This document shows, one piece after another, positions 22,262 through 40,705 of a stretch of 64,000 nt of DNA. This stretch comes from Caulobacteraceae bacterium PMMR1 (GTDB lineage: Bacteria; Pseudomonadota; Alphaproteobacteria; Caulobacterales; Caulobacteraceae), in the NCBI GenBank assembly GCA_000733915.1, contig JPOM01000001.1, positions 2,606,001 to 2,670,000 of the forward strand. The letters are read 5' to 3'. Below the pieces are notes generated by a model. That model made no database searches and was not told the DNA's origin. It saw only the letters and a program-made list of their open reading frames with translations. Within the stretch, counting starts at the first letter, position 1. Each line of letters starts with the position of its first letter. Position numbers and translations under genes: made by a program.

Positions 22262-23173
22262 TCAGAACCGGCGCGACACGCCGAGGTAGACGTTCGCCCC
22301 CGGGGTGGTGCGGTTCAGGCCGAGATTGACCCCGGCGTCGAGCTGCAGGTCCTGGCCGATCAGCTTGGAGACAGCGAAGTCCAGCGACGCCTGCCGGGTC
22401 GTGCCGGCGGGGTCGAAGTTCCAGTCGCCCCAGAGCTCGCCGTAGAGCGTCCAGTCGTGCGGCAGGCTGTAGGCGACGTTGACGGCCTGGGCGGTGTTCA
22501 GGTGCCGGCCCGAGCCGCTGGCGTCCGAGAGGGCGTCGGCCTCAGGCGCGAAGCCGATCGCCCACTTGGCGTCCAGCTTGATGTTGACGGGCGCAATCAG
22601 GCCCGCCTCCACCGCGCGGTCGCCGATCCCCCGCCGCGCGGTGGGCAGCTTCACGTAGGGGAAGAGCCCGACCTGGGCGTTCCCGTCGCGGCTGTTCCAG
22701 GCGGCCCATTTCAGGCGCAGGTAGAGATCGCCGATCCCCTCCAGCGTCTGGGTCCCCGACGCGCTGCGGGTGCGCACGCTTTCGTACAAGGCGAGGTTCG
22801 CCTCCACGTCGAGGTTCTTGGCCAGGCCGTACTTCAGGGTCGGATTGGGCGCCAGCCAGACGTCGGTGGTCACCCCGCCCAGGCGCTGGAAGGCGCCGTT
22901 GGCGAGATCGGTCTCCAGCTGCCAGCGGCCCGCATCCACGGCGCAGGCGTTGGACGACTTGGTCGGTCGGTCCGCGCAGATCGGACCCGTCCCGCTGTCC
23001 TGCGGCGGCGCACTCTGGGCGCAGGCGCCGCCGACCCAGGCGCCGGTCGCGAGCGCGAGGACGCCCGCCGCCATCCAGCGCGCGAACGTGGCGGACCTCG
23101 GCCGATAATGACCACAGGCAAGGAGGCGCCTGCTCGGCGCGATCACTCGTTTCACATCTTGCCCAGTGGACAT
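22262..23173 (-). CDS. Outer-membrane beta-barrel protein, MetA/transporter family
   Basis: 303-residue protein with a signal peptide (hydrophobic WMAAGVLALATGAWVGGACA, cleavage after CAQ near residue 53) and then alternating beta-strands. It ends VYLGVSRRF, with the terminal Phe typical of outer-membrane barrels. Strands such as LYLRLKWAAW and WTLYGELWGDWNF match the 'putative MetA-pathway of phenol degradation' barrel family. The start at 23173 leaves 33 residues before the hydrophobic core; the ATG at 23074 would give a short signal peptide and may be the true start. Substrate is unknown. Confidence 0.75.
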   Translation of the reverse strand: MSTGQDVKRVIAPSRRLLACGHYRPRSATFARWMAAGVLALATGAWVGGACAQSAPPQDSGTGPICADRPTKSSNACAVDAGRWQLETDLANGAFQRLGGVTTDVWLAPNPTLKYGLAKNLDVEANLALYESVRTRSASGTQTLEGIGDLYLRLKWAAWNSRDGNAQVGLFPYVKLPTARRGIGDRAVEAGLIAPVNIKLDAKWAIGFAPEADALSDASGSGRHLNTAQAVNVAYSLPHDWTLYGELWGDWNFDPAGTTRQASLDFAVSKLIGQDLQLDAGVNLGLNRTTPGANVYLGVSRRF

Positions 23174-23478: not shown

Positions 23479-24603
23479 CTATGCGGTCCGCAGAAGCTCG
23501 CGGTAGCGGTGCTGGACCTGCAGGGATTGTGGATCGACGCTCGCCAGTTGGGCGGCCGCCTTTTCGCGGTAGAGGCTGAGGGCGTCGTCGTGGCCGGCGT
23601 AGGCTTCGAGCAAGGCCCTGCCGCCATCTGCGGCGTCGAAGTCGGCGTAGCGATAACCGGCGTCGCCCAGCATGTCTGAATTATGCACCAGGGGATAACC
23701 GCCGTAGAGCGCCTCCCAATAGAGATAGTTCAGCGCGTTCATCCACTGGTGCGTCACCACCGCCTCGCAGTGGTCGGCCAGGAACTGGGCGCCGATGAAT
23801 CGCGGCTCGACAGTCATGATCCTCGCCTTCACCGCCGAGAGCGAGCCTGCGAAGCTGGCGAAATGCGCGTCGTCCTTGAGCCTTAGGGCGTTGGTCACGT
23901 AGATCGCCTCGAAGGCGTCGGGCTTCTGGCGAAACGCCGCCTCGGCCGCCAGCATCGGCATGTGGCTGGTCTTCATCACCGTAATGTTCGGGTCTAAGAT
24001 GCCAACCCTCCAGCGGGGGCGGCCGCGCCGATAGCCGAATCCCGACGGGGCGAAGGCTTGGACGAACCGCGGGCTCCAGGTCTGCGGCGCGATCTGGACG
24101 GGGCAGCGGTAGATCGCCTCACACCAGCCGCGGTAGGTGGCCGCGTGCTGGGGCGTCAGCCACACCGCATCGTAGCAGTCGGCATCGAAATAGCGCTCGC
24201 CGTCGACCCGGGTTTGATAGCCGACCACGGCCTCCATGGAGATCACCGCGCCGTTTCCGCCCTTGAACGCAATGGTGCGCACGCCGCGATCCCGCGCGCG
24301 GCGAAGCTCGGCGGGGGCCAGCGCCGCCCCCGCGTTGATGAGATAGTCCAGCCCCTCGGGCAGCGTTTCCGCCGTAACGATATCGCGGGGATCGACGCCG
24401 ACGACAGCGGGATCCTCGCGAACCGGGCCGTCGCCGGCGTTGATGAGCCTAACGCCCGCGCACTCAGGCATCGCGCGAAACAGGTGGTAGAGGAAAACGA
24501 CGTTCTGCCTCAGCCCGTTCTCGAAGAACCCGAACGACCCGTCCGCATTGACGAACATGCTGAGGCCGACGCGAAAGCCGGTCCGCTGGCGAACCGTGGT
24601 CAG
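23479..24603 (-). CDS. DUF2827 family protein, glycosyltransferase-like (downstream copy)
   Basis: About 374 residues if started at the CTG at 24603 (359 from the first ATG at 24558). DUF2827 proteins are glycosyltransferase-like and often sit in surface-glycan or adhesin loci. Recognisable segments are ENGLRQNVVFLYHLFRA, LTPQHAATYRGW, the AIAPQTWSP-like QIAPQTWSP, LDPNITVMKTSHMPMLAAE, VVTHQWMNALNYLYWEALYGGYPLVHNS and YRYADFDAADGG. The family's first strand (FRVGLSM) lies just upstream of the first ATG. An AAAAGGAG ribosome-binding site is well spaced for the CTG, which overlaps the stop of the upstream gene (CTGA). It is paralogous to the gene at 25172. Confidence 0.82.
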   Translation of the reverse strand: MTTVRQRTGFRVGLSMFVNADGSFGFFENGLRQNVVFLYHLFRAMPECAGVRLINAGDGPVREDPAVVGVDPRDIVTAETLPEGLDYLINAGAALAPAELRRARDRGVRTIAFKGGNGAVISMEAVVGYQTRVDGERYFDADCYDAVWLTPQHAATYRGWCEAIYRCPVQIAPQTWSPRFVQAFAPSGFGYRRGRPRWRVGILDPNITVMKTSHMPMLAAEAAFRQKPDAFEAIYVTNALRLKDDAHFASFAGSLSAVKARIMTVEPRFIGAQFLADHCEAVVTHQWMNALNYLYWEALYGGYPLVHNSDMLGDAGYRYADFDAADGGRALLEAYAGHDDALSLYREKAAAQLASVDPQSLQVQHRYRELLRTA

Positions 24604-25172
24604 TGAAACATCTCCTTTTTGACGGAGACGCAGCCGTTGCCCGCCGGCATCAGATAGACCTGGACGGCGGCGTTCAGCTCGCTGACGTCCACCGCCTTCA
24701 ACAGCTTGTGGCTCGCCGAAAAGCCCGAGAACACCGTGCGCTTCAAGACATCGCAGGGTTCAGCCCAGCTGATGGTCTGGGTGTAAAATCCTGGGCACCC
24801 GATACCGGGGGCTGCGACGAGGGTGGCCAGGCGGGTGCGCCCCATCGTCAGGTGCGCGCTCTCGATGGTGATGACCGTCGGCCAGCGGTTCGCATCCGGA
24901 CCGAGGGGCTGGACCACGAAGTTGGCCTCGCCGTCTTGGAACAGGAACTTGGCCGCGCGCTCCACCGCCGGCGCGCACAGCGTCATGCCCACCTGTTGCA
25001 GGGCGGCGTCCAACCGTTCGAGGGGGCTGGGACCGGGGGCGCCCATGGCCCCGGCGACGCCCGATGGCGGCGCGGGGGCCGTCGCTCCGGCCTGGTCGGG
25101 CTTAGGCCGCCTTGGCGGGGCCGCCGAGGCCGGACCGGCGAGCGCGACGGCTGCGCCGGCGAGAACCACCAT
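24600..25172 (-). CDS. Small secreted protein of unknown function
   Basis: 190 residues. A signal peptide (VVLAGAAVALAGPASA, then PPRRPKP) is followed by a Pro/Ala-rich linker and a domain of ~140 residues with three or four cysteines (TLCAPAVE, GIGCPGFY, AEPCDVL, NGCVSV), which could form two periplasmic disulfides. I recognise no family. It is sandwiched between two DUF2827 genes: its ATG overlaps the upstream stop (TGATG) and its stop overlaps the proposed CTG start of the next gene, so the three are translated as one unit. A periplasmic or surface partner of the adhesin is inferred from context only. Confidence 0.7.
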   Translation of the reverse strand: MVVLAGAAVALAGPASAAPPRRPKPDQAGATAPAPPSGVAGAMGAPGPSPLERLDAALQQVGMTLCAPAVERAAKFLFQDGEANFVVQPLGPDANRWPTVITIESAHLTMGRTRLATLVAAPGIGCPGFYTQTISWAEPCDVLKRTVFSGFSASHKLLKAVDVSELNAAVQVYLMPAGNGCVSVKKEMFH

Positions 25173-26281
25173 CAGGCGGCGTCCATCACCGAGGCCAGGA
25201 GCTCCGCATAGCGGGCCTGAACGCCGGGATTGTCGATGTGATAAGCCCATACGGTCTCCATGGCGCAGCGGCGCTCGTGCTCCGGATCGGCGCCGTGGCG
25301 GGCGACCGCGTCCAGGATGGCGCGCCCGCCGTCGGCCGGGTCGAAATCCCTATAGCTGTATCCGCAAGCGCCAAGGTGCGGCGAATTATGAACGATCGGA
25401 TAGCCCGCGAACAGAACATCCCAATAAAGGTAGTTAAGGCTGTTCTCCCACTGATGCGTCACGACGAGATCGATGTGCAAGCCCAAGAGGTGCGCAAGGG
25501 GAAAGCGGCTTTCGGCGAACAGCCGGCCGTGGCGCATCAGATCGGTCGCGGCGCAGAACTCCTCGAAGTGAGCATTGCCCTTCAGATGGGCGGCGCTGAA
25601 CATCAGCACGCGATCGATCGCCTCGGTCCGCTGGCGAAACGCCATGTCGGCGGCGAGCAGCGGGATGTGGAAGGTCTTCAGCACATTCACATTGGGGTCG
25701 AAGATGCCGATGCGCACCGGCGCGCCAGGCGGCCTTCGCTTCCAGAACAGCGGCTGGCCGGCGGAGGCGGCCGATTGTTCCAGCAGGACCGGCGACCAGA
25801 TATGCGGCGCGATCTCCACCCGCGGCGAGCGCGTCATCGCCGCGTAGCTGGCGTTCATCCGCCAGTGCTGGGGGGTGATCCAGACGGCGTCGAACGGCGC
25901 CTCGGCCATGATCTCCCCATGGGGAACGGCGCAGGCGACGGCTTCGAAGTTCATGGCGAGCGCATTCCCGGCCAGGTAGGACACGATCCTGCCCCCGGCC
26001 CGGCGAAAGGCGTCCATGGCCGCCGTGGCCCCCCGCGCGCCGAGCTCGACCAGCACGTCGAGCCGCCCGGCGACCTCGTCCTCTCCCACGACCGGAAGGC
26101 CGAGGCGCGCGCCGAGGGGGTGCGACGTGCCCGCGGGGCAGGCGACCACCGCCGCCAACTCCACGTCCGGCAGACGGCCAAGGAGCATCAGGAGGAACGC
26201 GACGTTCTGGACGATCCCGCTCGACCACAGCGCAGGTTCCAGGGCCGGTTCCCCGCCCTTGACCGTCACGCCGACCCTCAA
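25172..26281 (-). CDS. DUF2827 family protein, glycosyltransferase-like (upstream copy)
   Basis: 369 residues from a TTG at 26281 that begins LRVGVTVKGG, where the family starts; a longer frame back to 26365 would overlap the adhesin end. Conserved segments shared with the paralogue at 23479 are WSSGIVQNVAFLLMLLGRL, WITPQHWRMNASY, IAPHIWSPVL, FDPNVNVLKTFHIPLLAAD, VVTHQWENSLNYLYWDVLFAGYPIVHNS and YRDFDPADGGRA. It lies 37 bases downstream of the trimeric autotransporter and is probably co-transcribed with it. Modification of that adhesin is an inference. Confidence 0.82.
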   Translation of the reverse strand: MRVGVTVKGGEPALEPALWSSGIVQNVAFLLMLLGRLPDVELAAVVACPAGTSHPLGARLGLPVVGEDEVAGRLDVLVELGARGATAAMDAFRRAGGRIVSYLAGNALAMNFEAVACAVPHGEIMAEAPFDAVWITPQHWRMNASYAAMTRSPRVEIAPHIWSPVLLEQSAASAGQPLFWKRRPPGAPVRIGIFDPNVNVLKTFHIPLLAADMAFRQRTEAIDRVLMFSAAHLKGNAHFEEFCAATDLMRHGRLFAESRFPLAHLLGLHIDLVVTHQWENSLNYLYWDVLFAGYPIVHNSPHLGACGYSYRDFDPADGGRAILDAVARHGADPEHERRCAMETVWAYHIDNPGVQARYAELLASVMDAA

Positions 26282-27109
26282 CCCCAAACGCCGCCCGCCC
26301 CCTCGGCCGACGCGGCCGCTAGAACTTGAAGCCCACGCCGGCGGAGGCGGCCACCGGCGACCCATGGGTCAGACCCAGGCCGAGGCCCACGCTGACCGTC
26401 ACCTTGGGCGCGGGCTGGCCGAAATAGCGGAAGCCCACCGCGGTCTTGCCCTCGAACGTCGCAACGCCGCCCGTCATGCCCTGTTCGCCGGCGTTGAGGG
26501 CCAGGGGGACCGCGTCCATGGCCATGCTCATGGCGACGCCGGCATAGGCGATGCCCACGCGCCGGTCGGCGGCGTAGAGCGCGCTGTTGATGTTGCTTGA
26601 GAGCCGGCCCAGCTGGCCGACCGTGGCGGCGTCCGTCGGGTTGACGCCGTCGGCGACATTGGTGATCCGCCGCTCCGACCCGGCGGCGCCCACCGAGACG
26701 GTGTTCGGCTCGCTCGCCACGGAGTTGGCGCCGATCGCCACGGAGTTGGACGCCCCCGCCGCGACGCGGGCATTGTAGCCAAGAGCGATGGCGTTGGGCG
26801 CATTCGCGCCGACCGAGGCGTTGGCGCCGACCGCCACGGAATTGGGCGAGCTGGCCGCAATGTTCGCGTTATAGCCCACCGCGGTGCTGTAGTCGGCATT
26901 GGTCCGCGCGCCGGCGCCGACGGCGATATCGCCCGGCCCGGCGGCATAGGCGTTGTAGCCCGTCGCATAAGAGTTGGCGCCGTTCGCGGTCGCACCTGTG
27001 CCCAACGCCGTGGAGGTGCCGGTTTGCGCGCTCGATCCACTCCCGAAGGTCAAGCCGCCGCCGGGGTTCGTCGGCAGGCCGAGGTTGGCGAAGCGGGTAT
27101 CCACCGAGC

Positions 27110-28297
27110 TCGACAGGGTCGAAAGACCCTGAGCCAGCCCCGTCACCGAAGTCGAGACGCCGGCGAGGTTGGCGTTGGTGGTCGACAGCGACGAGCTCAG
27201 CCCCGTCACCGAGGTCGAGACGCCGGCCAGGTTGGCGTTGGTGGTCGACAGGGACGAGCTCACGCCCGTCACCGAGGTCGAGACGCCGGCCAGGTTGGAG
27301 TTGGTGGTCGACAGCGACGAGCTCAGCCCCGTCACCGAAGTTGAGAAGCCCGCGAGGTTGGCGTTGGTGGTCGACAGGGATGACGCTAGCGTCGTCACCG
27401 AAGCGCTGACGCCGCCGAGCGAGGTCGAGACGCTGGCGAGGTTGGAGTTGGTGGTCGACAGCGACGAGCTCAGCCCCGTCACCGAGGTCGAGACGCTCGC
27501 GAGATTGGAGTTGGTGGTCGACAGCGACGAGCTCAGCCCCGTCACCGAGGTCGAGACGCCGGCGAGGTTGGAGTTGGTGGTCGACAGCGACGAGCTCAGC
27601 CCCGTCACCGAGGTCGAGACGCTGGCCAGGTTGGAGTTGGTGGTCGACAGCGACGAGCTCAGCCCCGTCACCGAGGTCGAGACGCTGGCCAGGTTGGAGT
27701 TGGTGGTCGACAGCGACGAGCTCAGCCCCGTCACCGAGGTCGAGACGCTGGCCAGGTTGGAATTGGTGGTCGACAGCGACGAGCTCAGCCCCGTCACCGA
27801 GGTCGAGACGCTGGCCAGGTTGGAATTGGTGGTCGACAGCGACGAGCTCAGCCCGTCACCGAGGTCGAGACGCTGGCCAGGTTGGAGTTGGTGGTCGACA
27901 GCGACGAGCTCAGCCCCGTCACCGAGGTGACGACAGCTAGCGCCAGGTTCGCGAGGTTGGAATTGGTGGTCGACAGCGACGAACTCAGCCCCGTCACCGA
28001 GGTCGAGACGCTCGCGAGATTGGAGTTGGTGGTCGACAGCGACGAGCTCAGCCCCGTCACCGAGGTCGAGACGCTCGCGAGATTGGAGTTGTGGCCGACA
28101 GCGACGAGCTCAGCCCCGTCACCGAGGTCGAGACGCCGGCGAGATTGGAGTTGGTGGTCGACAGCGACGAGCTCAGCCCCGTCACCGAGGTCGAGACGCT
28201 CGCGAGATTGGAGTTGGTGGCCGACAGCGACGAGCTCAGCCCCGTCACCGAGGTCGAGACGCTCGCGAGGTTGGAGTTGGTGGTCGACAGCTGGCTG
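27110..28297 (-). repeat. 63-bp tandem repeat array encoding the adhesin stalk
   Basis: About 17 copies of a 63-base unit encode a 21-residue, three-heptad repeat. Most copies differ by a few bases (Ser/Gly and Ser/Ala swaps). One copy (near 27385-27420) is longer by seven residues, and one near 27930-27965 carries a 12-base in-frame insertion. Two copies lack one base each. The open frame on the opposite strand here is a by-product of the repeat. Confidence 0.9.
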
Positions 28298-28529
28298 AAG
28301 TTGACCGCGTCGGTCGCCTGCGTTCCGGCCGCGACGTTGATGATCTGGCGGGCCTGGGAGCCGGAGCCCACCGAGACCACATTGGATCGTCCGCCGTCGG
28401 AAGATCCTGCACCGAGGGCCACCGAATTGACGCCCGTCGCGCTGGCGCCCAAGCCGATCGCCACGTCGCCCGACAGGCCTGCGACGGCCGAGCTGCCGAT
28501 CGCGATGGTGTTGTCGCCCACGACCGACT

Positions 28530-29850
28530 GACCGGCGTTCTGGCCTATGGCGATATTGCCGGAGCCCGTGACGGACTGGCCGGCCCGATAGCCGGAGGCC
28601 TGGTTGTAGTTGCCCGTGACATTCAGGCCGGCGCCAGTGCCGGAGGCCTGGTTGTAGGCGCCGTTGACGGTCTGGCCGGCGTAATAGCCCGACGCCTGGT
28701 TGTAGAAGCCGGTGACGGACTGGCCGGCGTAAGCGCCGGAGGCCTGGTTGTAGGAGCCATTGACGTTCTGGCCGGCCAAGGAGCCGGAGGCCTGGTTGTA
28801 GCCGCCCGTGACGGACCGGCCGGCGCCATAGCCCGACGCCTGGTTGTAGGAGCCGGTGACAAAGTTGCCGGCTGCATTGCCGGACGCCTGGTTGAAGTCG
28901 CCCGTGACGGACTGGCCCGCGTAAGCGCCGGAGGCCTGGTTGGAGTTGCCCGTGACGTTCTGGCCGGCCTGATAGCCGGACGCCTGGTTGTAGGAGCCGG
29001 TGACAAAGTCGCCGGCTGTATTGCCGGCCGCCTGGTTGGAGTCGCCGCTGACGTTCTGGCCGGCCTGATAGCCGGAGGCCTGGTTGTAGGAGCCGGTGAC
29101 AAAGTTGCCGGCTGTATTGCCGGAGGCCTGGTTGTTGTCGCCCGTGACGATCTGGCCGGCGTAAGCGCCGGAGGCCTGGTTGAAGGAGCCGTTGACGGTC
29201 TGGCCGGCCTGATAGCCGGAGGCCTGGTTGTAGCCGCCCGTGACGAACCGGCCGGCGGCAGCGCCCGAAGCCTGGTTGTAGTTGCCGCTGACGGACTGGC
29301 CGGCGAGATAGCCCGACGCCTGGTTGTTGTCGCCCGTGACGCTCTGGCCGGCCTGATAGCCGGAGGCCTGGTTGTAGTTGCCCGTGACATTCAGGCCGGC
29401 GCCATAGCCCGACGCCTAGTTGTAGGAGCCGTTGACGGACAGGCCGGCCAGATAGCCCGACGCCTGGTTGTAGGAGCCGTTGACGTTTAAGCCAGCCTGA
29501 ACGCCGAAGGCCTGGTTGGAGTTGCCGTTGACGTTTAAGCCAGCCTGAACGCCGAAGGCCTGGTTGTAGTCGCCGATGACGGCTCGGCCGGCCTGACGGC
29601 CGGAGGCCTGGTTGTTGTTGCCCGTGACGTTATAGCCGGCCTGATAGCCCGAAGCCTGGTTGTAGGAGCCGTTGACGGTCTGGCCCGCGAAAGCGCCGGA
29701 GGCCTGGTTGGCGTTGCCCGTGACGTTATAGCCGGCGTAATAGCCGGAGGCCTGGTTGTAGTCGCCCGTGACGGACCGGCCGGCGCTATCGCCTACGGCG
29801 GTGTTGCCGGATCCGGTGACGCCCACGCCGGCGTTGGCGCCCACGGCGGT
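28530..29850 (-). repeat. 48-bp tandem repeat array encoding the adhesin head
   Basis: Roughly 25 copies of a 48-base unit encode a 16-residue motif, N-Q-A-S-G-Y/A-x-A-G-x-x-V-x-G-x-x. The Asn-Gln-Ala-Ser-Gly core is nearly invariant at DNA level (GCCTGGTT on the plus strand recurs every 48 bases). This is longer than the 14-residue YadA head repeat but keeps the same Gly/Ala turns, so a beta-roll is likely. The amber codon at 29416-29418 is a C-to-T change in one Gln codon of this array. Confidence 0.9.
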
Positions 29851-30192
29851 GTTGCTCTGGGCCGAGGCCGGCGGCGGCGCGGACAGCGCGGCCATGAGGC
29901 TGATCGTCGATATGCCGGCCAACCACGCGGCCGCCCGTGAATGCTTGGACATAAAGCCTTCCCCCGCCGCAGATCCCCAAAGCTCGGGCGGGAGCAGCCC
30001 GACCGAGCCCCCGACCGCCAGCCCCTCGGCCGGCGCGCCGCGTGGCCGTAGCTTAACATTAGATTGACGGCAAGGAAAAGATTTAGGGTGGAAGCGGTCG
30101 CGCAGTCTTCGGGGCGCTCGCGCCGCCCTTGCGGTGAGAGAAGGCGAGGGAGGCGTTGCGTCGGCTTTTCGGCTTTACACCCTCAGTCTTGC

Positions 30193-31695
30193 TCAACCCA
30201 GGGCGCGGGCGACGTCCTCGATCACCGGGCCCCAGCGGTGCGCCCGCGCTTGTCGGAAGGTGCGGACGGCGGGGTACCAGAGGCTGTCCGCCCGCTCCAC
30301 GCCCCAGCGCCAGTCGGCGTTGCGCCACAGCAGCACCCAGGTCGGCTTGCCCATCGCCCCCGCCAGGTGCGCCACCGCCGTGTCCACCGTGATGACCAGG
30401 TCGAGGTTGGCGATGGCGGCCGCCGTGTCGGCGAAGTCGGTGATGAAGGGCGAAAGGTCCACCAGCGGCAGGCGGGGGATGTCGGCCAGCATCTCCGCAT
30501 TGCTGCGGTCGTGCAGGGCGAACCAGCGCACCGCGCCGACGTCGGCCAGCGGCTCCAACTCCGCGGGCGGCACGGACTTGCGCAGGCCGTTGGACAGGCC
30601 GTCGTCGCTGAACCGCGGCAGGCGCGCGCCGCCCACCAGCCCCACCCGCCGCTCGCCCCTGCGCGGCGGGGCCAGGGCCTCCAGGCGCGCCTTCCACCGC
30701 GCGACCTCATGGGGCGGCGGCTTCAGATAGGCGACCGGGGCCGGCGGGCCGTGGCGCATCGCCAGCGCCCCCAGGCTCCCCATCGGCGCTTGCCCGTCCA
30801 GCGGTCCGCACACCGCCAGGAAGGGCTGGGGTTGCGGCGGCGCGGGCCCCGCCACCGTGACGCTGGGCCACACCCTGGCTTTGGGGAAGCTCTCGGCGAA
30901 CAGCCGGGTCAGGGACGGGGCCTGGGCGAGGTTCACCTGCACGCCGGCCTCGAGCAGCCCTGGCACGGCGGCGGCGAACATCATCATGTCGCCCAGCCCC
31001 TGCTCTCGATGCAGCAGGAGCCTGAGGCCGGGTTTCGCCTCGCCCGACCAGGCCGGCAGGCCATAGTCGTGGATCGCCAGCCCCGCGTGGCCATAGACCG
31101 GCAGCCGCGCCTCGTACTGGGCGAAGCCCTCGGCGAAGTCCTCCAGGAGCAGGGTCAGCATGGAGTGCTCGAAGGTCACGCGCGGGTCGTCGGGCGTCGC
31201 GGCCGCCGCCTTGCGGAACCAGGCGAGGGCGTCGGCGTAGCGGCGCGTGTCGAGCGCCAGCTTGGCCAGCCGCAGCTCCTGGCCCGCCGCGCCGCCGCCG
31301 CCGCTCAGATAGCGCTGCATCAGCTCCCAGCCCTCCTCGGGCCGGCCGCGGCGGCGCAAGAGGTCGGACAGGTTGTTGAGCGCCCCGAGGTGGTTGGGAT
31401 CCAGCGCCAGGGCCTGGCCATAGCGCATCACCGCCGCCTCGAGCGCCCCTGCAGCCTCGGCCGCGACGCCGAGGTTGAAGTGCGCCTGCGCATCGCCGGG
31501 GGCCAGGCGCACCGCGCGTTCGAGCAAGGCGGGCGCGGCCGGGTCTCCGCCCAGGCGGGTCAGGGCCACCGACCAGGCCTGCAGCGCTATGGGATCGTCG
31601 GCCGTGTCGGGCGCCTGGCGAAGCACGGCGATCGCATCGACAGGGCGGCCTGCGTTCAGGGCGTCGAGGGCCAGGGCCACGCTCTCGGCGCTCAT
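30193..31695 (-). CDS. TPR-repeat glycosyltransferase (OGT/GT9-like), second of pair
   Basis: 500 residues. TPR units fill the first ~190 residues (PGDAQAHFNLGVAAEAAGALEAA and DPNHLGALNNLSDLLRRRGR). The C-terminal half is a GT-B-like domain with HREQGLGDMMMFAA and the donor-site stretch TVDTAVAHLAGAMGKPTWVLL, then YPAVRTFRQ. This architecture is common in alphaproteobacteria next to large secreted proteins. The ATG at 31695 overlaps the upstream stop (ATGA). The adhesin gene follows 240 bases downstream on the same strand. Protein glycosylation is the likely role; the acceptor is inferred to be the adhesin. Confidence 0.85.
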   Translation of the reverse strand: MSAESVALALDALNAGRPVDAIAVLRQAPDTADDPIALQAWSVALTRLGGDPAAPALLERAVRLAPGDAQAHFNLGVAAEAAGALEAAVMRYGQALALDPNHLGALNNLSDLLRRRGRPEEGWELMQRYLSGGGGAAGQELRLAKLALDTRRYADALAWFRKAAAATPDDPRVTFEHSMLTLLLEDFAEGFAQYEARLPVYGHAGLAIHDYGLPAWSGEAKPGLRLLLHREQGLGDMMMFAAAVPGLLEAGVQVNLAQAPSLTRLFAESFPKARVWPSVTVAGPAPPQPQPFLAVCGPLDGQAPMGSLGALAMRHGPPAPVAYLKPPPHEVARWKARLEALAPPRRGERRVGLVGGARLPRFSDDGLSNGLRKSVPPAELEPLADVGAVRWFALHDRSNAEMLADIPRLPLVDLSPFITDFADTAAAIANLDLVITVDTAVAHLAGAMGKPTWVLLWRNADWRWGVERADSLWYPAVRTFRQARAHRWGPVIEDVARALG

Positions 31696-33269
31696 GCGGC
31701 CAGCCTTGCCTCGAGCGCCTTCGCCACCTCAGCGACCACCCCGCCCCAGTCGCCCGGCGCCTGCTGCCGGAACAGGCGCACGTCCGGGTACCAATAGCTC
31801 CGGTCCGCGGCGAGCTCCCATCGGCAGTCGGGAAAGTCGTGGAGCAGGAGCCAGGTCTCCTTGCCGAGCGCCCCGGCGAGGTGCGCCGCGGCGGTGTCCA
31901 CCGTGATGACGAGATCGAGCCGCTCGATCAGCGCCGCGGTGTCGTCGAGGCTGGCCAGCCGCGCGTGGAGGTCGAGGAGGCGGCCGTTGAACGCCTTGGC
32001 TTCCGGCGGCAGCGGCCAGTTGAGCACGCTGACGAGGCTCAGACCGGCGATCTTGGCCAGCGGGGCCAGGGTTTCGACCGGCATGCTCTTTCGGGTCGCG
32101 CGCCGGGCGCTGTCCATGCGGAACAGGGCCGGGTTGGAGGCCCAGCACAGCCCCGCCTTCAGCCCCTGGCCGGCGTCGACCCCCGCCCAGCGCGCCCTCG
32201 CCGCCTCCGAGGGCCGAAGATAGGGCTTGGGATCGGCGAAGCTCGCCTCGGTCCGACGCAGCACCGCCATCAGCGAGCCGATCGGCGCCTGGAAGTCGGC
32301 CGGCGGCAGGCGCTTCAGCCACGGCGGCTCGGGATGGTCGCCGGCGAAACGGCCGTAGAGCGCGGGCAGGACCGTCGCCTTGGGAAAGGAGGCGGCGAAG
32401 AGATCGCAGAGCGGCGGGGCGGCCACCACGATCGTCTCGCCGGCCGCATCCACCACCTCCTGCAGGGCGCAGGCGAACATCAGCTGATCGCCGAGGCCCT
32501 GCTCGTTGTGGACGATGATCCGCTTGCCCGCCAGGGGCTCGCCGCGCCAGAGGGGCTGAGGGAAGGGATAGGCGAAGACCCCGTTCAGATGGCCGACGGC
32601 GAAGCGGTGCTCGAACGCGTCCCAGGCCTCGGCGAACCGCTTCTGGAACAGGAGCATGGCAAAGCGCTCCCACGCGATGATGTCCCGCTCCGGCGCGAGT
32701 CGCCGGGCGACGTCGGAGGCGGCCTCGGCCTCCTGCCACCGCCGCAGGTGGAACAGGCAGACCGAACGATTGAGGTGCGCGGACCAATCCTGCGGCGCGA
32801 GCAGGAGCCGGCGATCCGCCCACGCCAGGGCCTCCTCGAAGAACTCCAGCCGCCTGAGAAGCTCCGCCCCGTTGCCGAGGGCGTTCAGGTGCGTGGGGTC
32901 GACCGCTACGGCGCGGCGGTAGGCCTCGATGGCGGCGGGAAGCGCGCCACGCTCGGCCTCCAAGACGCCGAGGTTGTACCAGCCGTTCGGATCGGCCGGG
33001 TCGGCGAAGGCGGCGGCCTCGACCAGGGCGAGGGCGGCCGGTGCATCTTCGGGCGGACGGATGAGACCGCTGAGCAGTTGCGCCCGGGCGTCGCCGGGAT
33101 TGAGCTGCAGGATCCGGCCGAGCGCCTCGGCGGCCCGCGCCCTGTCCTTGGCCTGGTAGGCGCGGAACGCTTCGCTGTGCAGGGCGGGCAAAAGCCCGAC
33201 ATCCCGCTCGGCCGGCGGCAAGATCAGCCCGGAACCCGAAGGCAGGTCACGCGCACCACCAGGCGCCAC
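31692..33269 (-). CDS. TPR-repeat glycosyltransferase (OGT/GT9-like), first of pair
   Basis: 525 residues, paralogous to the next gene. TPRs run from about residue 30 (LHSEAFRAYQAKDRARAAEAL) to ~200 (DPNGWYNLGVLEAERGALPAA). The catalytic half has HNEQGLGDQLMFACAL, PIGSLMAVLRR and TVDTAAAHLAGALGKETWLLL, ending YPDVRLFRQQ. The GTG at 33269 overlaps the preceding secreted-protein gene by 46 bases; a TTG near the upstream stop is an alternative start, and the conserved part begins after both. The stop overlaps the next ATG, so the pair is translationally coupled. Confidence 0.85.
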   Translation of the reverse strand: MAPGGARDLPSGSGLILPPAERDVGLLPALHSEAFRAYQAKDRARAAEALGRILQLNPGDARAQLLSGLIRPPEDAPAALALVEAAAFADPADPNGWYNLGVLEAERGALPAAIEAYRRAVAVDPTHLNALGNGAELLRRLEFFEEALAWADRRLLLAPQDWSAHLNRSVCLFHLRRWQEAEAASDVARRLAPERDIIAWERFAMLLFQKRFAEAWDAFEHRFAVGHLNGVFAYPFPQPLWRGEPLAGKRIIVHNEQGLGDQLMFACALQEVVDAAGETIVVAAPPLCDLFAASFPKATVLPALYGRFAGDHPEPPWLKRLPPADFQAPIGSLMAVLRRTEASFADPKPYLRPSEAARARWAGVDAGQGLKAGLCWASNPALFRMDSARRATRKSMPVETLAPLAKIAGLSLVSVLNWPLPPEAKAFNGRLLDLHARLASLDDTAALIERLDLVITVDTAAAHLAGALGKETWLLLHDFPDCRWELAADRSYWYPDVRLFRQQAPGDWGGVVAEVAKALEARLAA

Positions 33270-33652
33270 GGCCGCTGCGCCCTGGCGGCGTCGGGCGCGC
33301 TCGCCTCGACCTGCCAGCCGCCCCCGGTGGAATCGGGGATCGAGCGCACCCCGTCGACGCCGACCGGCGCGAGCGCCGGGGCTCCGTTAGCGCCAGGAAC
33401 CGTCATCACCCCCGTGTAGCCTGCGCCAAGCGCCCGGTGCGTCGCCGGGCACAGCACGGTCAGCTGCTGGCGGACGGCGGCGTCTTCCGTGTGCGAGCCT
33501 TCGACCACCACATAGGTCGGGGCCGGTCGCTGCGCCGGCGCGGGCTGGGCGCCTCGCGCCGCCGCCGGAACAACCGCCGCGGGCGCCCGCGAGGGCTGCC
33601 CGTAGACAGACGAAGACATCGCCAAGCAGGCGATCAGGATTGGCGTACGCAC
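33224..33652 (-). CDS. Small secreted protein of unknown function
   Basis: 142 residues from a GTG at 33652 with GAGGGGGA upstream. The signal peptide (RTPILIACLAMSSSVYG, cleavage near GQP) is followed by an Ala/Pro-rich linker and a ~90-residue domain with two cysteines (LTVLCPATH and VRVTCLRV) probably paired in the periplasm. I know no family for it. It overlaps the start of the first TPR-glycosyltransferase, so it is probably the first gene of that operon. Confidence 0.65.
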   Translation of the reverse strand: MRTPILIACLAMSSSVYGQPSRAPAAVVPAAARGAQPAPAQRPAPTYVVVEGSHTEDAAVRQQLTVLCPATHRALGAGYTGVMTVPGANGAPALAPVGVDGVRSIPDSTGGGWQVEASAPDAARAQRPWRLVVRVTCLRVPG

Positions 33653-33920
33653 GAGCTCCCCCTCGATAAACCGCCCGCTGTTATAGATCGGGCGATCCGG
33701 AAGGCAATCCGGCGCGCGCTCGCCGGGACGGCTCGCCGAGCTCACCGTGGAGCCGTGTAAGATCCGCGCCCACTCGGGGACCGTCCGTGGCGGAGAGGGA
33801 GACCGCCGAACTCCCGTCGTGAGCTGTCCAGAACTTTCGGCAAAAAGGCCCACTATCTGAACGGCTTGCGGATCCTTTGTCCGCGAGGGTTCGAGGCTGT
33901 AGGCTCGCAGCCGAGCCAAA

Positions 33921-33944
33921 AGGTGGGACCCAAGGTGGGACCCG
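33921..33944 (+). repeat. Direct repeat at the left boundary of the integrase island
   Basis: AGGTGGGACCC occurs twice, 12 bases apart (33921-33931 and 33933-33943), ending 22 bases before the integrase ATG. Short direct repeats of this kind are often recombinase arm sites or part of an attachment region. I see no tRNA gene next to it; the rest of 33653-33965 holds only the promoter region of the divergent secreted-protein gene. Confidence 0.4.
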
Positions 33945-33965
33945 AAACGTGAACGAGCCCAGAAC

Positions 33966-34637
33966 ATGGCCGGTAGGACGCTTCATCGCCCAACCTCGCG
34001 CGAAGTGGAGACGCTCGGCCCCGGGCGGCACGCTGACGGCGCTGGGCTTTACCTGGTCAATGACGACGCTGGCCGCCGCCGGTGGGTGTTCATGTGCAAG
34101 CGCGACGGCAAGCGCCGGGAGATGGGGCTCGGACGGGCCGGTATGGGCGGCGTCTCACTCGCGACAGCGCGAAAGGCTGCCGCCAAGGCCCGGGATGCGC
34201 TTGAGCATGGCAAGAACCCGACTGTGGAGCGCGACGCCGAGCGCGCGCCCGCGGTGGTCGCCCCCACCTTTGGGGAGGTCGCCGACGAGTTCGTCGAGGG
34301 CCAGGGGCTGCAGTGGCGCAATGAGAAGCACCGGGCGCAATGGTCCATGACGCTCAAGGTGTATGCCAAGCCCCTTCGCGAGTTGCCGGTGGATCAGATC
34401 GACACCGCCGCCGCCGTGCTGGGCACGCTGAAGCCCATTTGGACCAAGAAGCCCGAAACCGCCTCGCGGGTGCGCGGCAGGATCGAGCGCGTCCTGGATG
34501 CGGCTAAGGCCAAGGGCTTCCGCAGTGGGGAGAACCCCGCCCGCTGGCGCGGCCACCTCGACCACGGCTTGGGACACGATCTTAAGCTCGTGCTCAGGCT
34601 GCGACACCTTTGCAGCAATTTGGGAGTTTCAGAATGA
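33966..34637 (+). pseudogene. Tyrosine recombinase/integrase, N-terminal half only
   Basis: 223 residues. A DUF4102-type arm-binding domain (RHADGAGLYLV, KRREMGLGRAG, VSLATARKAAAKARD) and the core-binding helices (TFGEVADEFVE, LPVDQIDTAAAVLGTL, NPARWRGHLDH) are intact. Homology ends at about 34570, before the catalytic domain with its Arg, His and Tyr. The reading frame then runs through ~20 unrelated residues and stops in an ATGA overlap with cas3. It is a catalytically dead remnant marking an integration event; it may still be translated and couple to cas3. Confidence 0.85.
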
Positions 34638-37399
34638 GCGATGAGGAGGCGCAGTTTCAGCAATTCTTCCACGCTGCAACCGGCTTTCCGCCATATGCGT
34701 GGCAAATCAAGGCGGCTGTCGAGGGGCTTCCTCAGATACTCCCAATCCCGACAGGGTTGGGAAAGACTGAGGGAAGCGCGCTGGCATGGGCTTGGCGGCG
34801 CTTTACGGGTAAGGACGACGAACCGCTTCACCTTGTCTATTGCCTGCCGATGCGGAGCCTTGTCCGCCAAACGGTCGAACGCCTGCGATCCTGCTTCTCT
34901 GCACTCAAGTCGTGGAATGGCGCGATAGACATCCCGGTTTTCCAGCTCATCGGCGGTGACGTCGGGGACGGGTGGGATGCGCTTCCAGACCGCCCATGGG
35001 TGCTGGTCGGAACGCAGGACATGCTGCTGTCGCGAGCTTTGAATCGCGGCTACGGCATGAGCCGCTTCGACTGGCCCATGCATTTCGGCCTGCTCAATCA
35101 GGACTGCCTCTGGATCGTCGACGAAGTGCAACTCATGGGGCCTGGCCTTTGGACCACGGCCCAACTGGACTGGATGCGGCGCCATCGCTTCCCAGGCGTC
35201 AAGCCCTGCCGCACGACTTGGATGAGCGCGACGCTTGGCGTCCAGTTTCTTCAGACGACGGATCGAAAGAAAGACGAATGCGATGGCGTCGAGCCTTTCG
35301 ACGCGGGCCTTGAAAGCGACTCGAACGCGGCTTTCAAGCTGCTGCGGGCCGCATGGCGTCGGACAACACTCCACCAGCCCGCAACGGGAGCGAGAGCAAA
35401 GCCGCGCGTCGAGCAGATCGCGTCTGAAGCCAAAAGCGCTCACGCTTCCGGCACGCTGACGCTGATCGTCTGTAACACGGTAAAGACTGCCCGGGACATC
35501 TTCCAGAAGCTCGGGGCGGATAGCGCGCCAAAGATTCTGCTCACATCACGATTTCGCGCCGGTGAACGCACCGAATACGAAAAGACGCTCCAGATTTTCG
35601 AGCAGCGTCGGAAAATGAGTCAGTCCGGGCGCGTTGGAGGCTGTGATCCGGGGTTGATCTGCGTCAGCACGCAGGTCATTGAAGCGGGCCTCGACATCTC
35701 GGCGCATCGATTGTGGACGGAGCATGCGCCATGGCCTTCGCTGGTGCAGCGCCTGGGCCGCCTCAACCGCGACGGCAAGGACAATGAAGCTCGAGCGGTC
35801 GTCTGGAAGCTCGAATCCGAAGAGAAGCGCAAGCACGAAGGCGAGGACTGGATCGGGCCCTATCGGAAAGCCGCGCTGGACCAAGCGTCATCGTTGCTCA
35901 AGGCGTTTGCACCGCTATCGGAGCAGATGTCGGCCCAGGAAGCGCTCGCGAAGCTTCAAGAGAAGATGCCGAAAGAACTTGAAGAGGCGCTCGTGATCCC
36001 GCCCGAACCTTATCCGCGCGCGCTCGACGTTCACGGACTTTTCTCCACGGAGCCTGACGTCTTTGGCGGCTTCACGGATGTGAGCCGGTTCGTGCGGAAC
36101 GCCGATCCGGATGCAGACGTCATCGTGTTCTGGCGGGATTGGCAGGGCCGCGAGCCGCCGCGAGGCGACGCCCTCGACGGGCCGCTGCTCGACCCGGATC
36201 GTGAGACTTGCTCTGTGGCGCTGCAGCGATTGCAGGGCTTGCTGAAGAACGTCAAAGCGCCTGCGTGGTTCTGGGATGATCGCGCGGAGCGCTGGGCTCG
36301 AATACGCGCCTCGGACTTGAAGGCCGGCATGACTGTGATGCTGCACGGCGATGTCGGCGGCTATGACAGAGACCTCGGATGGACAGGCGACAAAAGCCAT
36401 CGATTGAAGGACTTGCCGCCGCCAGGACCCGGGCGCACCTTGCGTGACGACTGGCGCGCTGAGGCGGGCTATTGGTCCGGCCTGACGTCGCACCTCTTGG
36501 ACGCGCGCCGCGAGGCGGAGAAGATTTGCGACGGATTGGCTCTGCAAGACCCAATCCGACGAGCTGTCGTCGAGGCCTCCGGCCTCCATGATCTCGGCAA
36601 GGCTCATCCGTGTTGGCGCAAAGCCATACCGACGGGCGGCCCGCTTGACGACGAGGTCCTGGCGAAGTTCCCGAAAGTGCTTCGGGTCAAAGTTCTGAGT
36701 CGCGACGCCGAAAGCGTGAGAGCGGCGGTCCAGCCGAAACTCGCGAACGCAAGCGCACTTTCCGATGAAGGCCCAAACGATGACGGAGTTGTCCGGCTTC
36801 ATTGGGCGCTGGAGTGCAAACTCGACAGGAAGGCGCTCGAGGAAATCCGAGCGCTTCCGAATGTGAGTGGGGCGGCGCACAAAGCATTCCGCCCCGGTCT
36901 GCGCCACGAGGCGGCGTCCGCCCTGGCGATGTGGCGGCGATATAAGGACTCGGAAGAGACGCCGCCCTATCCCGCGCTCGCCGTCTATCTCGCCGCCGCT
37001 CATCACGGGAAGGCGCGCACCGTTCTGCGCGCGATCTCAGACGAAGGTTCAGACGAAGGTGGAGATGTTTTTGGCGTCAGCCGATCTTCCGAAGCTTTGC
37101 AGTTAGATGGCCAGGAATGGCCGATGGATTTCTCGATTGCCCTGGACGGCGCCGATGGTGATTGGACCAACAATGGTTTCGCGCTGAACGGTCCGGGTTG
37201 GACTGCCCTTGTCGCCGACATTCTCGGACCCTGGCGCGGTGAGGCGGACGGAGCGTGGACCGGCGCAGTCCCCAAGGATGAGCCGCGCGCGCTCGGGCCG
37301 TTTGCGCTCGCCTGGCTCGAAGCACTTGTTCGAGTCGCCGACTGGCGCGCGAGCGAGCGCCCGTCCCAGCGCGTTGCGCCGGGAGGCGCCTCCATATGA
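34634..37399 (+). CDS. cas3: Cas3 helicase-nuclease, type I-G (I-U) with C-terminal HD domain
   Basis: 921 residues. The superfamily 2 helicase comes first: Walker A PTGLGKTEG (about residues 39-47), DEVQ in WIVDEVQLMG, MSATLG, and motif VI QRLGRLNRDG. The HD nuclease is at the C-terminal side: GLHDLGKAHPCWR near residue 655 and a later AAHHGKAR. Helicase before HD is characteristic of the type I-G (formerly I-U) Cas3. It unwinds and degrades DNA bound by Cascade. It is the first gene of cas3-csx17-csb1-csb2; its ATG overlaps the stop of the truncated integrase and its stop overlaps the csx17 ATG. Confidence 0.93.
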   Translation: MSDEEAQFQQFFHAATGFPPYAWQIKAAVEGLPQILPIPTGLGKTEGSALAWAWRRFTGKDDEPLHLVYCLPMRSLVRQTVERLRSCFSALKSWNGAIDIPVFQLIGGDVGDGWDALPDRPWVLVGTQDMLLSRALNRGYGMSRFDWPMHFGLLNQDCLWIVDEVQLMGPGLWTTAQLDWMRRHRFPGVKPCRTTWMSATLGVQFLQTTDRKKDECDGVEPFDAGLESDSNAAFKLLRAAWRRTTLHQPATGARAKPRVEQIASEAKSAHASGTLTLIVCNTVKTARDIFQKLGADSAPKILLTSRFRAGERTEYEKTLQIFEQRRKMSQSGRVGGCDPGLICVSTQVIEAGLDISAHRLWTEHAPWPSLVQRLGRLNRDGKDNEARAVVWKLESEEKRKHEGEDWIGPYRKAALDQASSLLKAFAPLSEQMSAQEALAKLQEKMPKELEEALVIPPEPYPRALDVHGLFSTEPDVFGGFTDVSRFVRNADPDADVIVFWRDWQGREPPRGDALDGPLLDPDRETCSVALQRLQGLLKNVKAPAWFWDDRAERWARIRASDLKAGMTVMLHGDVGGYDRDLGWTGDKSHRLKDLPPPGPGRTLRDDWRAEAGYWSGLTSHLLDARREAEKICDGLALQDPIRRAVVEASGLHDLGKAHPCWRKAIPTGGPLDDEVLAKFPKVLRVKVLSRDAESVRAAVQPKLANASALSDEGPNDDGVVRLHWALECKLDRKALEEIRALPNVSGAAHKAFRPGLRHEAASALAMWRRYKDSEETPPYPALAVYLAAAHHGKARTVLRAISDEGSDEGGDVFGVSRSSEALQLDGQEWPMDFSIALDGADGDWTNNGFALNGPGWTALVADILGPWRGEADGAWTGAVPKDEPRALGPFALAWLEALVRVADWRASERPSQRVAPGGASI

Positions 37400-39561
37400 G
37401 CACGAACCGCGCCGTTCTGTCGGTCATTCCCGTTCCGGGGCTTAATCCGACTAGCCTCGGCGCTTACCTCGCAGCGCTCGGTCTGTTGAAGGTTTTGTCG
37501 CGCCGCTGGCCCGACGTGCGCGCAGCCTGGCGCGACGGCGTACTGCATGTTGTCGGTGGCCCGACCGACCGCGATACGCTGGCGGACGCCTTGATGAGCA
37601 TTGCGGATCAAGGAGCGTGGACGCCCTATCTGCGACAATGGAAAAAGGATCAGGAACTAAGCACTAAGCGTAAGGTCAATTATCCATTGCTGCTTTGGCA
37701 GGCCAATGCTGACGAAATTTTACTTGAGACCTTCGCTGCGCACATAGCTCCCGCGGGTCGTGGTCGGTTTAATCCATTGCTGGGAAACGGCGGGAGTATC
37801 GGCAATCGTGACTTTTCAGATGGTTGGAAAAGAGCAACGGATGCACTCAAAGCACCGGCGTCACCGAAGAAATCAAAGAACGCAACGAACGCGGATAATC
37901 GGCGTGAGGCGCTGACTGCCTTTCTCCAAGGAGAGACGCTGGAATGGCAAGCTGAGAAGCTCAACGCCGCCTCATGGTTCAGCGACGCCAACAAGCTCTA
38001 TAACAGCGGCCAGGGTGCGTATAGCGAAGGCGCGATCTCGCCATGGGCCATGGCGCTCGCCTGCGAGGGGCTTGCCTTCTTCGCCGGCGGCGCATCACGC
38101 CGGCTCGGCGCGCGAACCAGGCCCGTCGGCGCTTTTCCCTTTGTCATCGAGAGCGCCGCTCCCGAAACGTCCGGCGAAGCGGGACGCGACCGAGGTGAAG
38201 TCTGGGCGCCGGTTTGGAACCGTCCAATGACCACGTCCGAAGTCGCCGCTCTTTTTGCGCGAGGACGGGCCGAGATCGGTGGCCGCGGCGCTACCACACC
38301 TGCTGCTTTCGCCGTAGCTGTCACGCGGCGCGGCATCGATGCCGGTGTCAGCGAATTCCGGCGGTTTGCGCTTGGCGGAACGACCAGCAAACAAACTTTC
38401 GAGCCGCGCTATCTCGGCTTCGTGCGGGATCCGACCGCCGCCGGCGACGACGCCGCCGCCGCCGCCGCCGCACGATCCGAAGCGTTCAAGCGTGCGCTCA
38501 ACCTGATCGAGAAACTGCCTTCCGACAAGAAGGTGGGGCAGCGTTGGCGCTTCGTCGGTCTGCGCGGCCCGATCGAGAGCGCGCTCGTTCGCGCAGCCGG
38601 CGCGCCGGCTGATTCCGAAGCGGCAGTGGCCCTGCTTGACGCAACGGTGGTGTCGCTGGACCGCGTGGACGTCAATCGGTCGTTTCGTGAGCAGAGCGTC
38701 GCCTGGCGGCCGCTGCCGCTCGCTTGGCTGGCGGGTCTGTTCGGAGGCGACGTGCCCGACGTGGAGGCGCGCCTCGCCTTGTCGCTGGCGTCCGCCTTTC
38801 CCGCCGACTATCCGTTTGCGCTCTATCGATTTGGCATCGAGTGGCGGGACCACAATCGAGACGGACGGCCCGCCTACATCCACTCGAAGACTCCGCCGGC
38901 GCGCTGGGTTTGGCGCGCAGGTCCGTTGACGCGAAATCTCGGTGCGGTACTTCAGCGCCGCCTGCTCGACTGGGAAAATGAGCATGAGCGGGGCGCGCCG
39001 CCGGCCTTCGCACGGATCACGGCGCGCCTGTCGGACATCGAAGCCTGGCTCGACGAAAACGTGGACGAGGCGCTGCTCGCGCGATGGCTCTCACGTTTTG
39101 CGCTGTTCGACTGGTCCTTCGACTGGTCCTTCGATCGCAATGACGCCAGGGCGCTCCTGACTCGCGACAACAAGTGGAGCCCGCCGACCCCTGTTGGGCC
39201 AGCGCTGGCGCTCTACGGCCTTCTTTCCCCGCTGTTTGATCTGAGGCCCGTGCGAGAAAGCGGCCAGCGAGACGGACGCGATCTTCTGGCGCCCGATACC
39301 GGCGCACGCACGCCTGCGGCGGCGCGCAAAATTACTGCGCTGATCCGCGGAGGCGATGTCGAGCGGGCCGTTGACGTCGCAAGGTCGCGCTACGCCATGG
39401 CCAACGCGCCCCTGATGAGCACCGACGCACCCTGCGCCGTCAACGATCCGGAGCGCCTGCTGACCGCCCTCCTGTTCCCCGTTTCCAGCGCAGATCGCGC
39501 CGCACTTGTGCGTCGTTGGCTGCGCCCGCAACGCCAATCCGATGAGGTGACACATGCCTGA
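37396..39561 (+). CDS. csx17: Csx17, large subunit (Cas8-like) of type I-G CRISPR effector
   Basis: 721 residues. The N-terminus PGLNPTSLGAYLAALGLLKVL is the hallmark of Csx17, together with FNPLLGNGGSIGNRDFSDGW in the middle and the C-terminal LRPQRQ end. It takes the place of Cas8 in recognising the PAM and holding the Cascade complex. Small internal slippage marks are present: a perfect 12-base duplication giving DWSFDWSFD (39109-39132) and a GCC run giving seven alanines near 38455. Its start overlaps the cas3 stop (ATGA) and its end overlaps the csb1 start by eight bases. Confidence 0.92.
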   Translation: MSTNRAVLSVIPVPGLNPTSLGAYLAALGLLKVLSRRWPDVRAAWRDGVLHVVGGPTDRDTLADALMSIADQGAWTPYLRQWKKDQELSTKRKVNYPLLLWQANADEILLETFAAHIAPAGRGRFNPLLGNGGSIGNRDFSDGWKRATDALKAPASPKKSKNATNADNRREALTAFLQGETLEWQAEKLNAASWFSDANKLYNSGQGAYSEGAISPWAMALACEGLAFFAGGASRRLGARTRPVGAFPFVIESAAPETSGEAGRDRGEVWAPVWNRPMTTSEVAALFARGRAEIGGRGATTPAAFAVAVTRRGIDAGVSEFRRFALGGTTSKQTFEPRYLGFVRDPTAAGDDAAAAAAARSEAFKRALNLIEKLPSDKKVGQRWRFVGLRGPIESALVRAAGAPADSEAAVALLDATVVSLDRVDVNRSFREQSVAWRPLPLAWLAGLFGGDVPDVEARLALSLASAFPADYPFALYRFGIEWRDHNRDGRPAYIHSKTPPARWVWRAGPLTRNLGAVLQRRLLDWENEHERGAPPAFARITARLSDIEAWLDENVDEALLARWLSRFALFDWSFDWSFDRNDARALLTRDNKWSPPTPVGPALALYGLLSPLFDLRPVRESGQRDGRDLLAPDTGARTPAAARKITALIRGGDVERAVDVARSRYAMANAPLMSTDAPCAVNDPERLLTALLFPVSSADRAALVRRWLRPQRQSDEVTHA

Positions 39562-40702: not shown

Positions 40703-40705
40703 GCC

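Follow-up and report, generated by a model that had tools for sequence, protein, structure and literature searches.

A candidate gene cassette for O-glycosylation of the Ser/Thr-rich stalk of a trimeric autotransporter adhesin, and a proposed function for DUF2827

Described systems and the PMMR1 locus

Serine-rich repeat adhesins of Gram-positive bacteria are glycosylated in the cytoplasm by paired enzymes of the GT-B glycosyltransferase fold, GtfA/GtfB and SdgA/SdgB, which are encoded together with the surface protein on which they act. A comparable arrangement is proposed here for a trimeric autotransporter adhesin (TAA) of Caulobacteraceae bacterium PMMR1, whose genome is available as one contig (JPOM01000001.1, 2.67 Mb, 99.9% complete) and of which a stretch of 64,000 nucleotides, hereafter the window, was analysed (positions 2,606,001 to 2,670,000). 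On the minus strand of the window, in the direction of transcription from 33967 to 23479, a secreted protein is followed by two proteins in which tetratricopeptide repeats (TPR) precede a GT9-like glycosyltransferase domain (TPRGT2 and TPRGT1, together the TPR-GTs), the adhesin, a protein of the Pfam family DUF2827 (DUF2827b), a second secreted protein with four conserved cysteines (Cys4) and another DUF2827 protein (DUF2827a). In our best reading this is a self-contained cassette dedicated to the O-glycosylation of a TAA with a Ser/Thr-rich stalk, and DUF2827, a family without an assigned role in the literature searched, is tied to a recognisable class of such stalks. That DUF2827 enzymes glycosylate these stalks is in our judgement probable, catalysis being what we infer from fold, genomic association and stalk composition.

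The locus resembles several described systems and departs from each of them. GtfA and SdgB are found within the first five structural matches of a DUF2827 model, whereas the proposed acceptor here is the coiled-coil stalk of a Gram-negative TAA, and no sequence relation was detected when the DUF2827 alignment was searched as a profile against PDB sequences, the sole match being a designed TIM barrel. Autotransporters with a glycosyltransferase-like gene of their own adjoining are described for the BAHT family (Aah, TibC) and for BimC beside BimA (PMC4358343, PMC6439308). Like the BAHT enzymes, the TPR-GTs match GT9 and heptosyltransferase models, which are generic models only; however, DUF2827 is a different family, TPR arms are present on the TPR-GTs, and BimC is reported to be inactive as a glycosyltransferase. 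The order of a TPR arm followed by a glycosyltransferase domain recalls FlmG of Caulobacter, a likeness by domain description only, although FlmG is a flagellin O-glycosyltransferase, described as holding its substrate through the TPR arm (PMC7591256), and the TPR-GTs are placed at an adhesin.

With regard to the acceptor, Ser/Thr-rich repeats are also present in TAAs of Burkholderia. SLST repeats are described in BoaA and BoaB (PMC2955633), and in BCAM2418 such Ser/Thr-rich repeats led to the suggestion of O-glycosylation, with no enzyme named in the available sections of that account (PMC7142374); DUF2827 as the candidate enzyme comes from the present analysis. The word 'glycosyltransferase' does not occur in the main text of a paper on a B. 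cenocepacia TAA cluster (PMC3404963), and among the titles and displayed abstracts found on TAA glycosylation, none ties DUF2827 to TAAs. In the literature searched, DUF2827 is mentioned in one paper, on a cysteine database.

DUF2827 and the Ser/Thr-rich stalk class

Both DUF2827 proteins of the window pass the curated cut-off of PF10933 (25 bits) over nearly the whole profile, and a search of the window genome found no DUF2827 genes beyond these two. The family is rare, occurring in six of 398 genomes in an even sample of the phylum and in four of 60 relatives (the window genome included in both counts), and in a class-level search of 385 genomes the window genome alone was positive. All six DUF2827 genomes are among the 41 of the 398 in which YadA_stalk was matched, and when the window genome is left out the stalk family is present in 5/5 DUF2827 genomes vs 35/392 others (Fisher p 8e-6, a value that like the other p values given here is optimistic, the sampled genomes being related and their kinship not corrected). 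Co-occurrence of DUF2827 with YadA-type genes across genomes, which the initial annotation had put forward as a check on its proposal, was therefore borne out.

At the level of the locus, the DNA around 22 DUF2827 clusters from outside the window was read (six of 18 DUF2827-bearing plasmid records being covered), and 18 of these clusters could be judged by their flanks, the view at L004, L040, L041 and L042 being limited by contig ends. At 15 of these 18 clusters a TAA is visible. It was recognised by a YadA_stalk match at L034, L035, L036/L037, L047 and L048, by an anchor or head over the cut-off at L005, L006, L039 and L048 (all four anchors pass the PF03895 cut-off), by a 'YadA-like' annotation in the record at L044-L046, by BLAST to the window adhesin at L007 and L038, the latter also with a type V extended signal peptide, by an anchor below the cut-off at L003, and at L008 by repeats only, cut by a contig end. 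In two further genomes (G020, G033) a TAA runs off the contig end, as expected if the repeat broke the assembly, and linkage is not proven thereby.

Composition was compared over the 150 residues richest in Ser+Thr in each TAA. The linked set (n=19) comprised 17 TAA pieces beside DUF2827, those of L007 and L037 being cut at N-runs before counting, and two contig-end TAAs (L058, L059) that are unproven neighbours. The control set consisted of 20 of the 35 TAA genomes without DUF2827, taken from the best-scoring part of the list and picked before the composition was known; contig ends truncate the control stretches L060, L066 and L074, and the flank beside long TAAs can be as short as ~4 kb. Peak Ser+Thr was 0.39-0.68 (median 0.57) in the 19 linked TAAs vs 0.21-0.31 (median 0.27) in the 20 controls, with no overlap. 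For L003, L005, L006 and L008 the repeats were what first identified the TAA, which is circular for this test; without these and L058 and L059, the remaining 13 TAAs still show 0.43-0.68. Charged residues in the peak stretches have a median of 0.013 (range 0-0.107) in the linked set vs 0.087 (0.027-0.153) in the controls, with overlapping ranges.

Eighteen further TAAs of DUF2827 genomes do not adjoin DUF2827 in the fetched stretches; 13 of these lie at 0.23-0.34 and five at 0.66-0.67, the latter being four of the six in G225 and one of the four in G372. The DUF2827 cluster of G225 is without a neighbouring TAA, so that a role in trans is natural there. In that genome (L084, L086), three of the Ser/Thr-rich TAAs share one 19 kb stretch and one lies elsewhere in the chromosome, away from DUF2827.

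Using 150 residues of the B. cenocepacia locus L048 as a stalk probe (E 1e-10, nine candidates scored per genome), matches were obtained in four of the 398 genomes, all of them DUF2827-positive (Fisher p 5e-9 without the window genome). The association of DUF2827 is thus closer with Ser/Thr-rich stalks than with TAAs as a whole. The earlier suggestion that Ser/Thr/Asn-rich repeats of head and stalk serve as acceptors agrees with this to the extent that the Ser/Thr content of stalks tracks DUF2827, but the stalk is a better candidate for the acceptor site than the head.

A structural model was obtained with AlphaFold2 from an alignment (A1) of 14 DUF2827 sequences from the window and six public loci (pLDDT 81.9, pTM 0.82). 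Its top five Foldseek matches are GT-B enzymes or a pseudo-enzyme, including GtfA (E 6e-8) and SdgB (E 4e-7), and all 50 matches listed are, as we take it from their titles, GT-B glycosyltransferases or pseudo-enzymes of that fold. VIA-align gave Z scores of 23.1 for BshA, 22.3 for TarM and 20.3 for SdgB over 316-319 residues. The model predicts for DUF2827 the two-Rossmann GT-B glycosyltransferase fold, and the fold alone leaves the acceptor unfixed.

A midpoint-rooted tree was built from 53 DUF2827 domains. In it the a copy of the window falls with the a copies of L003-L008 and the b copy with their b copies, which suggests that the pair predates the divergence of these loci and has been retained as a pair. 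The second large group comprises several subfamilies, members of which are frequently adjacent to one another in clusters of two or three (e.g. L039, L042, L044). Three genomes of the window's own family (G008, G020, G033) carry DUF2827 sets of the other type, grouping with Burkholderia plasmid copies, which suggests horizontal movement and separate acquisition. The retained sets would fit a division of labour such as the addition of successive sugars, a fit and not a proof.

The window adhesin and its accessory genes

Coordinates of the cluster features are collected in Table 1. All genes named in the initial annotation were confirmed on the minus strand, but the adhesin is not one open frame. 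As for the overlapping starts and stops it described, an ATGA overlap joins the two TPR-GT genes and a TGATG overlap joins DUF2827b and the Cys4 protein, both read in the DNA and suggestive of translational coupling, whereas the overlap of adhesin and DUF2827b at 26319-26365 hinges on an over-long start of the latter, most homologues beginning ~25 residues later. The frame of DUF2827a is open upstream, with no ATG, GTG or TTG within the stretch read; in particular none occurs at 24558-24600 to cover a first strand that is present in homologues, and either an unusual start or a sequence error is possible.

Table 1. Features of the adhesin cluster in the window, in the direction of transcription
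Feature	Position	Strand	Basis
Secreted protein, no family assigned	33224..33967	-	ORF; signal peptide by eye; start probably well inside ORF
TPRGT2, TPR + GT9-like glycosyltransferase	31692..33269	-	Pfam TPR; Glyco_transf_9 22.5 bits, cut-off 22; alignment A4
TPRGT1, TPR + GT9-like glycosyltransferase	30193..31695	-	Glyco_transf_9 26 bits, cut-off 22; 39% to TPRGT2
TAA gene, frame interrupted	26319..29952	-	YadA_head and YadA_stalk matches; frames and repeat lengths
Adhesin signal region and first head repeats (by eye), ending at in-frame stop	29416..29952	-	No Pfam match by itself
Adhesin head repeats, neck and first stalk units	28057..29415	-	YadA_stalk 42.5 bits
Adhesin Ser/Thr-rich stalk of 63-base units, proposed glycan acceptor	27159..28260	-	Unit starts 28260 to 27221
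Adhesin membrane anchor, divergent YadA-type	26319..26489	-	PF03895 15.9 bits; aligns to TAA of L007
DUF2827 paralogue b	25172..26365	-	PF10933 E 1.1e-86, 291.4 bits; true start probably near 26285
Secreted protein with four conserved Cys (Cys4)	24600..25172	-	Alignment A2; profile match
DUF2827 paralogue a	23479..24558	-	PF10933 E 6.4e-92, 308.6 bits; AlphaFold2 model; true start unsure

Head and stalk repeats of a TAA are recognisable in the window adhesin (YadA_head at 54.2 bits besides YadA_stalk). Its anchor stays below the PF03895 cut-off of 22.7 bits, and a search of the whole window genome with this profile gave no match at E 0.001; the C-terminus of the adhesin aligns with the TAA of L007 at E 3e-17. 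In the Burkholderiales loci L003, L005 and L006, the TAAs extend ~35-65 residues (by eye) past the last anchor strand, which is unusual for a YadA-type anchor. The common stalk unit of the window has 21 residues, or three heptads, with hydrophobic residues at a spacing of 3-4 and the remaining positions taken by Ser, Thr, Asn, Gly or Ala; within the 150-residue peak stretch Ser+Thr reaches 0.55 and the hydrophobic spacing is 3, 4 or 7 at every step. Some stalks read NVS or NVT, and N-linked glycosylation at NxS/T was considered and dropped as a general rule because the common stalk unit of the window is without NxS/T.

The adhesin frame from 29952 is closed by a stop codon at 29418-29416, opens again without a frame change and runs to 28057, and then passes through two further frames because the two stalk units starting at 28134 and 27871 measure 62 bases instead of 63. 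This interruption is either decay or an assembly error in the repeat, both being possible. The alternative that fares best is a decayed locus, in which the adhesin is a pseudogene in this strain, the enzymes are left over and nothing is modified here, a reading compatible with glycosylation of the adhesins of relatives. The stop and the two short units speak for it, and with the frame reading as broken the sequenced strain may not use the cassette; the remaining cluster genes, however, including those of the enzymes, read as open, and near-identical tandem repeats are a typical site of indel errors in assemblies. We regard decay as a serious contender, though with less than an even chance.

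Both TPR-GTs have N-terminal Pfam TPR and a C-terminal Glyco_transf_9 domain over the cut-off, in the order found in FlmG. Homologues are present at seven of the 22 DUF2827 clusters (L034, L035, L040, L042, L044, L045, L048), mainly the glycosyltransferase part being aligned at L034 and L048, while L046 and L047 hold annotated TPR proteins without a match to the window TPR-GTs. At the 20 control TAA loci, from genomes without DUF2827, neither TPR-GT nor DUF2827 was found; among clusters with a TAA in view, TPR-GT occurs at 5/15 vs 0/20 controls (p 0.009). The TPR-GTs are, judged by their homologues, an optional and looser partner of DUF2827-TAA loci. It is conceivable that the targets are split, with DUF2827 modifying the adhesin and FlmG-like TPR-GTs, merely adjacent to it, modifying flagellin. 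The genome contains three flagellin matches, one of them weak, which together with the FlmG precedent keeps a flagellin role for the TPR-GTs in play; TPRGT2 as query found no homologue besides TPRGT1 at E 0.001, so that nothing else found in the genome is an obvious FlmG-like enzyme, and most DUF2827 clusters are without a TPR-GT found. On the other hand, the adhesin is immediately preceded by the TPR-GT genes, which are separated by ~0.6 Mb from the two stronger flagellin matches and by ~80 kb from the weak one, and the contrast with the control loci ties similar enzymes to DUF2827 clusters. We consider split targets rather unlikely. The initial proposal that both enzyme pairs modify the adhesin is supported for DUF2827, by co-occurrence, neighbourhood, fold and stalks, and more weakly for the TPR-GTs.

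Relatives of the Cys4 protein were found at five other loci, L039 by BLAST and L003-L006 by profile (hhalign probability 97%, E 1e-10), and alignment A2 shows four invariant cysteines. A model of the protein (pLDDT 75.1) gave no PDB match at E 0.001, and no function beyond 'exported' is therefore proposed. A protein of L044 was rejected as a member of this family (profile comparison probability 1.8%, E 0.028). A further exported protein stands in the same run at L003-L006, and the two that were scanned (L003, L005) match the Omp85 barrel family. The secreted protein at the upstream end of the cluster has no Pfam or NCBIfam match at E 0.01 and no match in the loci compared.

Outside the cluster, a gene of the Phenol_MetA_deg family lies directly downstream (22262-23173, minus strand), and a weak homologue of it (26%, E 8e-7) was seen ~4 kb from the DUF2827 genes of L033. 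On the other side and on the plus strand, a short integrase-like ORF (33966-34637, 223 aa, by eye), possibly a mobile-element remnant, separates the adhesin cluster from cas genes, which begin with a type I-G CRISPR-associated Cas3 (34610-37399; TIGR02621, 609.7 bits) and continue with three tightly packed ORFs (37396-42256) resembling the remaining type I-G set, for which they are candidates. No CRISPR-like direct repeat (at least 24 bases, spaced within 150) was found at 33900-64000.

Catalysis, mechanism and implications

A GT-B fold can also be retained by proteins that do not catalyse, and DUF2827 might act as a cytoplasmic chaperone or localisation factor for TAA stalks. BimC, which lies beside the TAA BimA and is reported to bind it but to lack glycosyltransferase activity, offers a precedent (PMC6439308) and calls for caution in inferring activity from position. 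The b paralogues of L007 and L008 look degenerate in A1, with motif residues lost (by eye), and may recall active/inactive pairs. Nevertheless, core motifs are kept in 12 of the 14 A1 sequences (by eye), the paralogues come in sets, and the closer tracking of Ser/Thr-rich stalks than of TAAs in general fits an enzyme acting on Ser/Thr better, which makes a non-catalytic role improbable. More improbable still is that DUF2827 builds a piece of lipopolysaccharide or capsule and travels on adhesin-carrying genomic islands, since, although the fold is common to many polysaccharide and small-molecule glycosyltransferases, clusters reside on Burkholderia plasmids and three clusters show no TAA nearby, the annotated records examined, L044-L047, list no polysaccharide gene next to the cluster (unannotated loci were not scanned for such genes) and stalk composition tracks DUF2827 even where the two are unlinked, in G225.

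Several observations weigh against stalk glycosylation by DUF2827, besides the optimistic p values, the broken adhesin of the sequenced strain, the degenerate b copies and the BimC precedent. The E-x7-E pattern that we take to mark GT4 enzymes is not strictly kept in A1, where by eye the second acidic position is kept as D/E and the first is N or D. The TAA calls at L003 (anchor at 16.9 bits) and L008 are weak and partly based on Ser/Thr repeats, and no TAA is in view at L033, L043 and L049 within ~7.5-10.7 kb of flank on each side; the whole 1.3 Mb record of L049, though not the rest of that genome, is without a YadA_stalk match. G008, to which L039 belongs, has no YadA_stalk match at E 0.001, while the TAA of L039 has head and anchor over the cut-offs. 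The stalk probe missed G405 and the window genome, both DUF2827-positive with Ser/Thr-rich stalks of other sequence. For the TPR-GTs, no homologue was found at 15 of the 22 clusters, some of which are cut by contig ends.

If glycosylation of the stalk by DUF2827 is nevertheless taken as the working model, the adhesin monomer would be made in the cytoplasm, where DUF2827 GT-B enzymes, often as two or three paralogues, would add sugars to Ser/Thr at outer positions of the coiled-coil stalk, different paralogues probably adding or extending different sugars. At this locus, the acceptor may be bound by the TPR arm of the two TPR-GT9-like enzymes, in the way that FlmG binds flagellins, and these enzymes may add the first or a further sugar. 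The modified chain would then be exported by Sec and the BAM complex, perhaps with the Cys4 protein as a periplasmic helper, and the glycans would render the nearly uncharged stalk soluble and stiff.

A wider proposal, to which we would give somewhat less than an even chance, is that DUF2827 is a horizontally moving family of protein O-glycosyltransferases, two or three paralogues of which build a short glycan stepwise on a distinct class of TAAs whose stalks have swapped charge for Ser/Thr and depend on a sugar coat for folding, solubility and outward reach; a trimeric coiled coil would in that case have come independently to the logic of the Gram-positive serine-rich repeat adhesins. The analysis offers a testable function for a Pfam family that had none, and candidate enzymes for the Ser/Thr-rich (SLST) stalks found in TAAs of Burkholderia and other bacteria. 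If the proposal is true, sugar coating of trimeric adhesin stalks would form a coherent system that can be recognised in sequences, and work on such adhesins expressed in the absence of the DUF2827 set would concern unmodified protein.

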